Part shown: positions 28,356 through 55,313 of the stretch, one piece after another | How positions within the stretch are numbered: the stretch's first letter is position 1 | How the letters are laid out: each line of letters opens with the position of its first letter | Assembly: GCA_016466735.1 (NCBI GenBank) | Contig: JAAOED010000016.1 | Location: 1-62,076 of the forward strand | Source of the DNA: Weissella confusa | GTDB taxonomy: Bacteria > Bacillota > Bacilli > Lactobacillales > Lactobacillaceae | Length of the DNA: 62,076 bases | Reading direction: 5' to 3' | The notes under the pieces: model-generated | The model's input: the letters and a program-made list of their open reading frames with translations, nothing else | Database searches by the model: none | What the model was told of the DNA's origin: nothing | Program-made: the position numbers and the translations under genes

Positions 28356-28961
28356 GTGGTTTGTGTCCGTCCTTACGGCCGGAGTGACCTGCCCCTTCTT
28401 TTCACGCGGCTCTTATTCCTTCACAGGAAGCCGCCTGATTTCCTACGCGTGTCGAGACACGCTCCGGTCAAGCCTTTTCGCTAACCCAAGCGGACCATGA
28501 CCTGTGGGGAGCGGAGTCCACGCCAATGGCGCGTACACCTTTACCTCCTCGTGGCTCTAAGCGGGAAACCCGCTAAGAACCCACACCCACGGGTCAAGGT
28601 CCACTTGGGTCTATACGCTCGGCGGGGCAGGTCACAGCAACCAAGCGATACTCTGATTGTTTGATAATCATCCACCGCAATACATCGGGTTGAACTGTTC
28701 ACCCATTCATTTTCCGGTGGATGACAATCTACAACAGACTAGAATATATTGGCTGCTGTGGCTGGGGGCGCCCCGCGTATAGAACCGGACATGGCTAAAC
28801 CTGTGGGGGTAATACTTAGGGGTTTTACCCCTTAGTATTACGGAGGGTAAAGGTGCACGCTGCAACGCAGTGGACTCCGCCTCCCACGGTTTTGACATGT
28901 CCGGTTTAGTGGGCCAAAAAAAGCCCCCAGCCACTCGACGCAACGCGTCGACACTGACCAC
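28356..28961. repeat. Palindromic repeat element, copy 1 (about 606 bp, inverted orientation)
   Basis: Fills most of the gene-free stretch between glnQ and the SMR genes. Terminal inverted repeats are GTGGTTTGTGTC and GACACTGACCAC. Each half forms a large hairpin: GTGACCTGCCCC near the left end pairs with GGGGCAGGTCAC, and GTGGCTGGGGGC pairs with GCCCCCAGCCAC in the right half. Inner hairpins include CTAAGCGGGAAACCCGCTAAG-like pairs. It is the reverse of copy 2 at 54540. No convincing CDS or transposase lies inside. MITE-like or structured-RNA element of no class I recognise. Confidence 0.82.
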
Positions 28962-29635: not shown

Positions 29636-29690
29636 AAACAAGAAAAGCCTGGGAGTTAGCGGCACATTTGTCGTTAACTCCCAGGCTTTT
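29636..29690 (-). terminator. Riboswitch-controlled terminator
   Basis: On the minus strand AAAAGCCTGGGAGTTAACGA pairs with GCTAACTCCCAGGCTTTT, followed by a T-rich run. The first arm includes the 3' conserved part of the aptamer, so ligand binding would compete with termination. Confidence 0.85.
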
Positions 29691-29763
29691 GTCCTTCCGT
29701 GTACGTGCAAAGCACGCGTTTGCTCTTGGACCAGACCACTACGTGCGGAACCCTAGCAAACTT
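29665..29763 (-). promoter_or_regulatory. Guanidine-I (ykkC) riboswitch
   Basis: The minus strand reads CTAGGGTTCCG, then GGTCTGGTCCAAGAGC, then ACACGG and GGACAAAAGCCTGGGAG, in the order and spacing of the guanidine-I class. Guanidinium binding should prevent terminator formation and switch on the two SMR exporters. Confidence 0.93.
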
Positions 29764-29764
29764 T

Positions 29765-30355
29765 TTAATGCGATTTAATTGATGATTCCAGTCTATCAGA
29801 CTGGGTTTGACCTGGCAACTCGGTATGCAATTCGTAAGACGACCCGAGCATGCGCTGGGGTGTTGCGAAGAATGACAGCCAAGGAGCTGTGCGACCGCTG
29901 GCGATAAATTGCCAGCGATCCAAGAAGGCAGCAATCAAAACGAGTTGCGCTTCATTTGGCTCATCATAAATGGTGATGGCCAAACGACCATCGTTATTTG
30001 GCTGCGTGATTGCCAGTTGGTGGTGTAGGTGGGTGATTTGAAATTTTTGTTTGTCCAGATTACCCAGAATCAACCAATTCAAACCACTCACAAATGATAT
30101 TTCGTGTAGTTGCAATGATAGGCCGATTGAACCTACTTGCTGCCCACTAACTGTCATTGTGAAACGGGGCAGAAAACCTAATGAAGCCTGTTCGAGTTCA
30201 GCTAAGACCGTTGCGCTTTGATTAAGTATTCGAAGGGTATTACCCTTTTGACCCATTTCTCCGGTAATATAATAAGCGATGGCTCCGGTAGCGTCTGTTA
30301 CAAGACTCATGCCGGTTGCCGAGTGGGTAACTTGTGTTAATCGTAATTGACGCAT
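29765..30355 (-). CDS. LURP-one-related-like protein (196 aa)
   Basis: AAGGAGG precedes the minus-strand ATG. The pattern of short beta strands (LVTDATGAIAYYITGEMG, LRILNQSATVLAELEQ, FTMTVSGQQVGSIG) resembles the tubby-like LURP-one/YxjI family; this is recognition by pattern only. No signal peptide or membrane segment. It ends 2 nt before the riboswitch, so it may feed transcripts into it, but a link to guanidine is not shown. Confidence 0.6.
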   Translation of the reverse strand: MRQLRLTQVTHSATGMSLVTDATGAIAYYITGEMGQKGNTLRILNQSATVLAELEQASLGFLPRFTMTVSGQQVGSIGLSLQLHEISFVSGLNWLILGNLDKQKFQITHLHHQLAITQPNNDGRLAITIYDEPNEAQLVLIAAFLDRWQFIASGRTAPWLSFFATPQRMLGSSYELHTELPGQTQSDRLESSIKSH

Positions 30356-45019: not shown

Positions 45020-45337
45020 GTGGTGTGTGTCGACGCATTGCGTCGAGGCATGGGGTCGCGGGACTATCTCCGGCAAAGTTCAAACCAGGGCAACCGAATG
45101 GCGCGGACGCCATTCAGCGGGGCAAATAATTCCCCCTAATCCTTTAAGTCCTGTATGGGCTTACCTGAATAGCGCCGGCCATGCGGCATGTTGCCCTGAT
45201 TTGAACGCTCCGATAGTCCCGCAACCCCATGCCAGCAGCCGAGATGGTCTATTCTGTTTGAGATGATCATCCACCGTAAAAACATGGGTGAACAGAAGGG
45301 GCAGGTCACTCCGGCCGACAGGACGGACACATACCAC
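45020..45337. repeat. Palindromic repeat element, copy 3 (about 318 bp)
   Basis: Terminal inverted repeats GTGGTGTGTGTC and GACACATACCAC match those of the 606-bp copies. It has the end hairpin TCGACGCATTGCGTCGA, one large stem (GCATGGGGTCGCGGGACTATC-type arm closing with GATAGTCCCGCAACCCCATGC-type arm), the shared linker CTGTTTGAGAT and only the outer end of the second module (GGGGCAGGTCACTCC). It is thus a one-module form. The stem sequence differs from copies 1 and 2 while pairing is kept. Confidence 0.8.
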
Positions 45338-53892: not shown

Positions 53893-54534
53893 ATGACAGA
53901 TTACAAAGCAGCAGTTGCCCAAGCCTTGTTGGATATCGAGGCTATTAAGCTACAACCAAACGATCCATTCACATGGGCGTCAGGTTTGAAGAGCCCAATT
54001 TATACGGATAACCGTAAGACGATTGCTTTCCCAAAGGTCCGCAAGTTGATTGCAAAGGGTTTGGCGAATTTGATTAAGCACGAGTACCCAGAAGTCGAAG
54101 TTATTGGTGGCGTGGCCACAGCCGGCATTCCACACGCAGCTTGGGTGGCAGCTGAACTTGAATTGCCAATGATTTACGTGCGCTCAAAGCCAAAGGATCA
54201 CGGCGCTGGTAAGCAAATCGAAGGTGAGCTAACGGCTGGTCAAAAGGTTGTCCTTATCGATGATTTGATTTCAACGGGTGGCTCAGTTTTGGGTGCCGTT
54301 GAAGCAACACGTCGTGAAGGCGGGGAAGTGTTGGGCGTTGTCTCAATTTTTTCATACGAACTACCAGCGGCTGATGAAAACTTCGCAGCAGCTGAGACAC
54401 CATTTGCTTCGTTGACGACTTACTCAGCTTTGATTGATGCAGCGATTGCGTCAGGTCAAGTAGATGATGCTGATTTGGAGACCCTACAAGCCTGGCGCCA
54501 AGACCCAAAGGCGTGGGGTGAAGCACGCGGATAA
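53893..54534 (+). CDS. pyrE: Orotate phosphoribosyltransferase
   Basis: Joins orotate and PRPP (213 aa). The PRPP loop is VVLIDDLISTGGS, and VRSKPKDHGAGKQIEG is the flexible catalytic loop. Last gene of the pyr operon; no intrinsic terminator is seen, and repeat element copy 2 begins 6 nt after the stop. Confidence 0.97.
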   Translation: MTDYKAAVAQALLDIEAIKLQPNDPFTWASGLKSPIYTDNRKTIAFPKVRKLIAKGLANLIKHEYPEVEVIGGVATAGIPHAAWVAAELELPMIYVRSKPKDHGAGKQIEGELTAGQKVVLIDDLISTGGSVLGAVEATRREGGEVLGVVSIFSYELPAADENFAAAETPFASLTTYSALIDAAIASGQVDDADLETLQAWRQDPKAWGEARG

Positions 54535-54539
54535 AGTTT

Positions 54540-55145
54540 GCGGTGTGTGTCGACGCGTTGCGTCGAGTGGCTGGGGGCTTCTTTTCACGCGGCTCTTATT
54601 CCTTCACAGGAGGCCGCCTGGTTTCCGCCGCGTGTCGAGACACGCTCTGGTCATGCCCCAATCGCTAAACGAGGAGTGTCAAAATAGTGGCGGGCGGAGT
54701 CCTGAGCAAGCTCGGTGCACCTTTACCCCTTGTAGCACTAAGCGGTAAAACCGCTAAGTGCTACTGCCACATATTTAGCCACTCCTCGTTCTATACGCGG
54801 GGCGCCCCCAGCCACGGCAGCCAAGATATTCTAGTCTGTTTGAGATTTACATCTACCGGAAACCAAATGGGTGAACGGTTTACCTTGATGTATTTTGGTG
54901 GATGAAAATCGAACAATTATAGTATTTCTCGGCCGCCGTGACCTGCCCCGCCGAGCGTATAGACCCAAGTGGACCTTGACCCGTGGGTGTGGGTTCTTAG
55001 CGGGTTTCCCGCTTAGAGCCACGAGGAGGTACAGGTGTACGCGCCATCGGCGTGGACGCCGCTCGCCACAGGTCATGGTCTACTTGGGTTAGCGAGCCTA
55101 AAGAAGGGGCAGGTCACTCCGACCGTAAGGGCGGACACAAACACC
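54540..55145. repeat. Palindromic repeat element, copy 2 (about 606 bp)
   Basis: Two modules face each other. Module A has end hairpin TCGACGCGTTGCGTCGA, outer stem GTGGCTGGGGGC (54567) with GCCCCCAGCCAC (54804), an ACGAGGAGTG/CACTCCTCGT stem and the inner hairpin CTAAGCGGTAAAACCGCTAAG. Module B, on the opposite strand, has the outer stem GTGACCTGCCCC (54938) with GGGGCAGGTCAC (55106), a CCCAAGTAGACC/GGTCCACTTGGG stem and CTAAGCGGGAAACCCGCTAAG-type inner hairpin. Equivalent stems differ in sequence but keep pairing. Short ORFs across it share VALSGK-type runs only because the hairpins are conserved. Confidence 0.83.
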
Positions 55146-55176
55146 AAACCTTTTTCGAAATTCCGAGTGTTTATAT

Positions 55177-55205
55177 TTGTAACCGCTTACAAGGTGCGTT
55201 ATTAT
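55177..55205 (+). promoter_or_regulatory. CcpA-controlled promoter (perfect cre)
   Basis: cre TGTAACCGCTTACA (55178-55191) overlaps -35 TTGTAA (55177-55182); a 17-bp spacer leads to -10 TATTAT (55200-55205). Confidence 0.82.
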
Positions 55206-55232
55206 AAACATGTACCAAAGGAAGAAAGGTAG

Positions 55233-55313
55233 ATGATAACTTTGGAAGAAACAATTATTTCAACCACATTAGTATCATCATCTACTGCAATCCATGCGGG
55301 CGTGTCACAGTAA
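55233..55313 (+). CDS. Possible 26-residue peptide in the CcpA-regulated unit
   Basis: ATG 55233 follows AGGAAGAAAGG, 28 nt from the -10 box. The peptide MITLEETIISTTLVSSSTAI continues for six residues to TAA at 55311-55313. It could be a functional small protein, a leader peptide, or the start of a lost gene. No family recognised. Confidence 0.4.
   Translation: MITLEETIISTTLVSSSTAIHAGVSQ

Follow-up and report, generated by a model that had tools for sequence, protein, structure and literature searches.

Architecture of the palindromic element

The window, a 62,076-nt stretch of Weissella confusa DNA (contig JAAOED010000016.1), was found to contain three copies of a palindromic repeat, at 28359-28954, 45022-45334 and 54540-55145, all of which lie between open frames, in agreement with an earlier sequence-only reading of the same DNA. 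The coordinates which that reading had assigned to the copy beside pyrE (54540-55145) were correct, and the element is present in the sequence as claimed. Its layout runs from a closing stem through an end hairpin, module A, a central hairpin, a mirrored module B and a second end hairpin to the other arm of the closing stem. The features are listed here, with R2 denoting a covariance model built on a four-genus alignment (A5):

54540-54551, plus strand: left arm of closing stem P1 (terminal repeat), GCGGTGTGTGTC
54550-54566, plus strand: left end hairpin, TCGACGC GTT GCGTCGA
54567-54815, minus strand: left module, type A1, reverse homologue of the right module, outer stem 12/12 paired; R2 match at 54644-54814 (minus)
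54578-54657, plus strand: additional structured 80-bp piece within the left module, 74/80 identical to 28395-28474
54816-54937, plus strand: central imperfect hairpin, GGCAGCC...GGCCGCC
54938-55117, plus strand: right module, type B, which contains the conserved CTTAGCGG/CCGCTTAG hairpin
55118-55134, plus strand: right end hairpin, CCG.CC GTAA GG.CGG
55134-55145, plus strand: right arm of closing stem P1, GACACAAACACC
28359-28954, minus strand: second full copy, flanked by an ABC transporter ATPase gene and an SMR gene that converge on it
45022-45334, plus strand: third copy, with an A2 left module and an internal deletion (no right module), directly behind a terminator

The description of two facing modules of about 300 bp held in part: the modules are homologous and in mirror orientation, as R2 matched both strands (54935-55120 on the plus strand, E-value 1.1e-29; 54644-54814 on the minus strand, E-value 1e-13), while their spans are 249 and 180 bp. 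The left module is the longer of the two because of the extra 80-bp piece, whose counterpart at 28395-28474 occupies the opposite module in the copy at 28359-28954; in that copy R2 matched 28451-28638 (minus) and 28755-28937 (plus). Terminal inverted repeats are likewise present, and their 12-mers are degenerate in the pyrE copy (GCGGTGTGTGTC; reversed GGTGTTTGTGTC), with GTGGTNNGTGTC being the commoner family form among 52 ends. The outer stems are fully paired in both modules (54567-54578/54804-54815 on the left and 54938-54949/55106-55117 on the right). The inner stem, which had been quoted as differing in sequence between the modules while still pairing, was found to form 10/10 pairs on the left (54669-54678/54780-54789) and 11/12 plus one G-T on the right (54964-54975/55077-55088). 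The RNA folding energy of the element was -306.8 kcal/mol compared with a shuffled mean of -218.6 (z-score -12.2; 0 of 20 shuffles equal), and a fold with DNA parameters gave a z-score of -9.0 (20 shuffles).

Near the second full copy, a Guanidine-I riboswitch (Rfam RF00442, 82.5 bits) was detected at 29676-29767 on the minus strand, upstream of two overlapping small minus-strand ORFs. The ORF tested behind this riboswitch is a Small Multidrug Resistance protein, and the copy at 28359-28954 lies directly downstream.

Base pairing under sequence change

Pairing was found to be maintained while sequence varies, as had been proposed from the letters of the window, in the alignments of module B, of module A2 and of four genera. 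The 63 pairs of module B accounted for 2014 cells, of which 98.0% were paired; 17 of the pairs were altered on both sides (1 of 500 shuffles as high; mean of shuffles 14.4), and the covariation score was 0.227 compared with 0.092 in shuffles; further pair types showed no excess over shuffles (37 vs 37.3). Much of this signal stems from the two versions of B, and thus the events are fewer than the cells. Module A2 displayed changes on both sides at 24 of 69 pairs (shuffled mean 11.6; 0 of 500 as high); in its outer stem, 18 of 22 pairs had changed in this way and, on the plus strand, none on one side alone. The four-genus alignment, composed of twelve matches from three other genera and one Weissella sequence, had 45 of 63 pairs altered on both sides and a paired fraction of 90.1% of cells, compared with 63.3% when shuffled and 33-42% in slid versions, a score that is favored by the fitting of the alignment to the model. 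Sequences were excluded from the module alignments for length or orientation (2/34 for B, 11/23 for A1 and 22/58 for C).

Across 4959 cells (248 pairs on both strands, mostly Watson-Crick), 4800 were Watson-Crick, 30 G-T, 60 A-C and 69 other, counts which are biased toward Watson-Crick by the restriction to shared, Watson-Crick-dominated pairs. A-C exceeded G-T in A2 (25 vs 4) and A3 (10 vs 1), as if the minus strand folded. When folding energies were compared by strand, A1, A2 and A3 were more stable on the minus strand, B and C on the plus strand, and whole elements on the plus strand in 19 of 25 cases (3 of the 28 chosen elements were excluded for uncertain left ends); therefore, no one strand stands out.

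Two explanations that differ from mobility bear on these data. The first is a functional structured RNA family (a cellular ncRNA or 3′ UTR element) that has been repeatedly duplicated, with selection acting on the RNA fold. This explanation would account for (i) the compensatory change across genera, (ii) the strand asymmetry of the folding energies and (iii) the z-score of the fold; however, the modules favor opposite strands, and together with the genomic evidence presented below this renders it unlikely. The second holds that long palindromes are kept complementary by copying from arm to arm (template switching or gene conversion), the fold itself having no selected function. The near-perfect Watson-Crick arms with few wobble pairs, the hypervariable yet paired outer stem of A2, and the inversions and collapses seen at individual sites are all consistent with such copying, and the scarcity of wobble pairs could come from DNA arms copying each other. 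Yet the multi-branched layout and the CTTAGCGG/CCGCTTAG hairpin are retained in other genera, and arm copying alone does not predict the inequality of A-C and G-T, such that we view it as an improbable account of the family.

Copies, insertion sites and neighboring genes

When G000, the assembly to which the window belongs, was searched by blastn, 60 matches were obtained. The 52 end sites read in this assembly were resolved into 22 two-ended elements, one truncated copy and seven ends at contig tips, with an eighth contig-tip end on C7. We infer that the assembly holds about 27 elements, as four left and four right tip halves would pair into four additional elements. Most ends consist of GTGGTNNGTGTC plus a hairpin, of which there are two main types and several rarer ones, and all 22 two-ended elements carry a GT-rich 12-mer plus hairpin at both ends, in the manner of the terminal inverted repeats by which MITEs are recognized. 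The module types comprised A1, which is homologous to B, two versions of B itself, and three unrelated types (A2, A3 and A4), with A3 also found inverted in the right slot. Modules are thus exchanged between copies and between arms.

Orthologous sites were sought for 19 elements of the assembly, the pyrE copy being one of them, among loci that included those obtained with a 12-piece flank query in four genomes. At least one resolved counterpart was found for 14 of the 19 sites and none for the remaining five. The 38 resolved site-by-genome comparisons, which were read by eye, included 11 empty sites, 13 filled sites (200 nt or more) and 14 remnants, in which fragments of the ends persist in a gap of 17-86 nt, with two further comparisons unresolved. 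The 11 empty sites support the proposed mobility, or at least turnover. At least four of the 13 filled sites were inverted (C2:49936 in G006, C20:15285 in G007, C8:35389 in G005 and C14:17384 in G006). We equate genomes G005 and G007 with W. confusa DSM 20196 and VTT E-062653, because the genomes reached via pyrE gave identical match lists. In the empty allele of C2:55085 the T-tract of a terminator joins the downstream flank directly, and in the filled allele the element lies between them; C1:167597 and C20:36676 resemble this site in that the insertion adjoins a T-tract. No target duplication, which a MITE would be expected to leave, was seen by eye at these three empty/filled pairs. Exchange by homologous recombination could account for part of the differences between sites. 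Minimal forms, in which a closing stem encloses a single hairpin as if a full element had collapsed, were also observed (L185:9528-9551 in G006, L224 and L225).

The position of the elements relative to genes and terminators was then compared. Rho-independent terminators, identified by a simple rule of hairpin plus T-tract, were found within 45 nt outside 29 of the 52 ends compared with 111 of 3000 random positions, and 20 of the 22 two-ended elements had at least one adjoining terminator. Part of this excess reflects the location of the elements behind genes, as the control positions were drawn at random from the same loci, coding regions included, rather than from other gene ends. Among the 21 elements for which both neighbors were read, with genes called by open frame only, 16 occupied tandem gaps, five convergent gaps and none divergent gaps; at the tandem sites, the orientation was the same as that of the genes in 11 cases and opposite in five.

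This placement bears on a role of the element as a transcription terminator or insulator behind genes. Each of these 21 elements follows the 3′ end of at least one gene, and the element is intergenic and highly structured, as such a role would predict. In opposition, a terminator already adjoins most two-ended elements, and the element is absent from 11 of the 38 orthologous comparisons. The suggestion that the copy at 54540-55145 serves as terminator for pyrE was not supported, as a consensus scan of 54400-55300 detected no terminator-like site, and we consider a terminator or insulator function very improbable. At the pyrE site of two W. confusa relatives that lack the element, a terminator-like hairpin is present whose left arm is absent in the window (by eye). 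The same body of evidence also weighs against the duplicated RNA family introduced above, including (i) the mixed orientation to genes, (ii) the location of most copies of the assembly behind terminators, (iii) gain and loss at the same sites, and (iv) promoter-like sites that occur at chance frequency (1 vs a mean of 0.8) and outside the element.

Distribution, known families and proposed mechanism

Within the genus, blastn matches were detected in 6 of 28 genomes, that of the window included. A covariance model (R1) built from 32 B modules identified the family in 11 of 397 Lactobacillaceae genomes and 4 of 40 genera, three besides Weissella. Model R2 matched each of seven genomes of this first sample (from at least 34 to at least 146 matches, with a maximum of 150 candidates scored per genome). 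With stricter filters it matched 19 of 395 Lactobacillales genomes, of which 15 belong to the family, and six genera were reached in this second sample. Outside the family, four genomes had six matches among those listed, and four of the six covered the short hairpin alone. The load was extreme in G164 (genome of about 2.6 Mb), in which the 140-300 kb interval of C1 (L312-L319) carries 36 module matches in 23 clusters over 160 kb, some with three modules in succession. These elements likewise end with a GT-rich arm plus hairpin, and many of their modules overlap what are probably spurious open frames. Terminator adjacency in G164 was weak: of 29 candidate ends, not all of which are real ends, five had a terminator within 45 nt (random 166/3000) and nine within 110 nt (random 394/3000).

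BOX repeats are modular, and the pneumococcal BOX, RUP and SPRITE repeats are shorter than the element. They are described as foldable intergenic repeats that are clustered and in some cases contain ORFs (PMC10969869; see also PMC3049150). On the basis of such descriptions, rather than sequence comparison, the element is set apart by its near-complete pairing and its location behind terminators. The mobile/repeat sequence candidates (MRSC) of bacterial structured-RNA surveys, e.g., MRSC-65-2, are reported to have many copies per genome, strong covariation, a structure that may matter as DNA and inconsistent orientation, and often to lie near transposase genes (PMC11109978). The element similarly occurs several times per genome, displays covariation and has no consistent orientation; however, MRSC-65-2 is depicted as a single long stem (PMC11109978), whereas the element is multi-branched, about 300-600 nt long (one copy is 1026) and built of two mirrored modules. 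The REP/BIME sequences associated with RAYT transposases are high-copy intergenic palindromes with REPs of 20-40 bp (PMC3733652), and are like the element in copy number and location but differ in that the Y1 transposase was not found in G000. IS1272 is described as targeting stem-loops, with replacement of the target stem-loop and without target duplication (PMC5678879). The element shares the stem-loop targets and the lack of target duplication, yet the terminator is retained at C2:55085 and C1:167597; the pyrE site, where the left hairpin arm is missing, is equivocal in this regard. GOLLD, ROOL and OLE are large, highly branched RNAs, with GOLLD known in part from Lactobacillales and GOLLD and ROOL assigned to phages or prophages (PMC12286853), and the element differs from these in its dispersed multicopy nature and absence of an Rfam match.

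The earlier impression that no named RNA family is involved was upheld by Rfam searches of the element at gathering and relaxed thresholds, which gave no relevant match; a scan at E-values up to 1 returned two weak matches to unrelated families and no intron model. The family was also not described in the literature searched, outside of which lie most subscription papers. The element does not show the full set of defining features of a MITE, REP, group IIC intron, IS1272 or ornate RNA, and it is best read as behaving like a structured mobile repeat (BOX, BIME or MRSC) that is unusually large. The sequence-only reading had named beforehand a single recent duplication, covariation at chance level and a match to a described family as grounds for giving it up; what was observed were many diverged copies, covariation above controls on most measures and no match to a described family.

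Domains of candidate mobilizing enzymes were sought in the element-bearing Weissella genomes. Y1_Tnp (PF01797) was present in two of the six and was not found in the readable part of G000, nor in G006, G007 or G008. RVT_1 (PF00078) was found in none of the six, the readable part of G000 included, and DDE_Tnp_1_6, which we take to be the domain of the IS1272 family, was not found in the readable part of G000. These three mobilizers are therefore unlikely. Group IIC introns also insert behind terminators, and an ORF-less intron of this group or a relative would fit both this preference and the multi-domain fold. The lack of an intron match in the Rfam scan, the missing reverse transcriptase domain in all six genomes and the closing terminal inverted repeat of the element make an intron origin exceedingly improbable.

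Several copies carry additional sequence that may represent cargo. In the 1026-bp version of G005 (L140), the central hairpin encloses a terminator-like hairpin and two small ORFs, an arrangement suggestive of cargo, with one of these ORFs matching phrog_21154, a phrog family without assigned function. In another G005 copy (L236:5577-6788, on C6) the central hairpin continues into an open frame of 307 amino acids with only weak, sub-threshold family matches. At a common point of module B, at least three G000 copies give way to an insert with an ORF-like start near MTGGSNF and the end ITGEYIFLNSDK*; contig tips C4, C23 and C9, on the one hand, and C27, C7, C8 and C20, on the other, share sequence and resemble the opposite ends of an insert that carries an ORF. 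The inner part of this insert was absent from the readable contigs of G000, and its ends had no match in plasmids or viral contigs. ORFs between modules were also considered as cargo at 15 loci of other genera and were found in L278 and L279, where the single long ORF of each proved to be an ordinary host gene (a LysR regulator and a family-8 glycosyltransferase, respectively) that probably lies between separate elements.

Overall, the family is dispersed, modular and strongly structured, shares an architecture held by a closing GT/AC stem, undergoes gain or loss and inversion at its sites, and is common to several genera. We consider it probable, with some reserve, that this modular intergenic repeat of Lactobacillaceae is mobile and relies on the folding of one strand in order to propagate or persist. 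In such a mechanism, the element would spread in folded single-stranded form, either as ssDNA or as an RNA copy, and a putative enzyme would join it beside the T-tract of a terminator, outside of the transcribed sequence, such that terminators may serve as safe landing places in Weissella. Module swaps and inversions would then arise by recombination among the many copies and between mirrored arms, and long palindromes may later collapse to a closing stem with one hairpin. A bolder version, which we put forward only tentatively, would place it in a new class of mobile element, a giant multi-branched folded ssDNA or RNA that is moved by an undescribed enzyme, settles behind terminators, carries genes in its loops and reaches about one per 7 kb in the 160-kb stretch of G164. 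If confirmed, one common group of food and gut bacteria would hold, per genome, from tens to well over 100 copies of a structured element that is new to the libraries and literature searched, providing a natural experiment on the upkeep and spread of long bacterial palindromes, with a mobilizing enzyme of terminator preference as the search target. For genome annotation, the overlap of modules with probably spurious open frames and the presence of copies at contig breaks call for caution.

Plasmid and phage collections were also scanned. Beyond one stretch on an L. paracasei plasmid, one query matched seven records through its coding end, and three of those records were annotated as pyrH. The end motif was not found in viral contigs, and a search of these for the conserved hairpin led to a single IMG/VR contig in which R2 matched both strands weakly (L364:5254-5414), which may represent a related hairpin carried by a phage. 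The plasmid stretch (L275:4001-4285; NZ_CP080339.1, L. paracasei plasmid p3) is related to the element; nrdI precedes it, and a gene for an IS30 transposase lies downstream. This is apparently the same site as L271 in G361 (genus g12), and thus genus g12 is probably Lacticaseibacillus.
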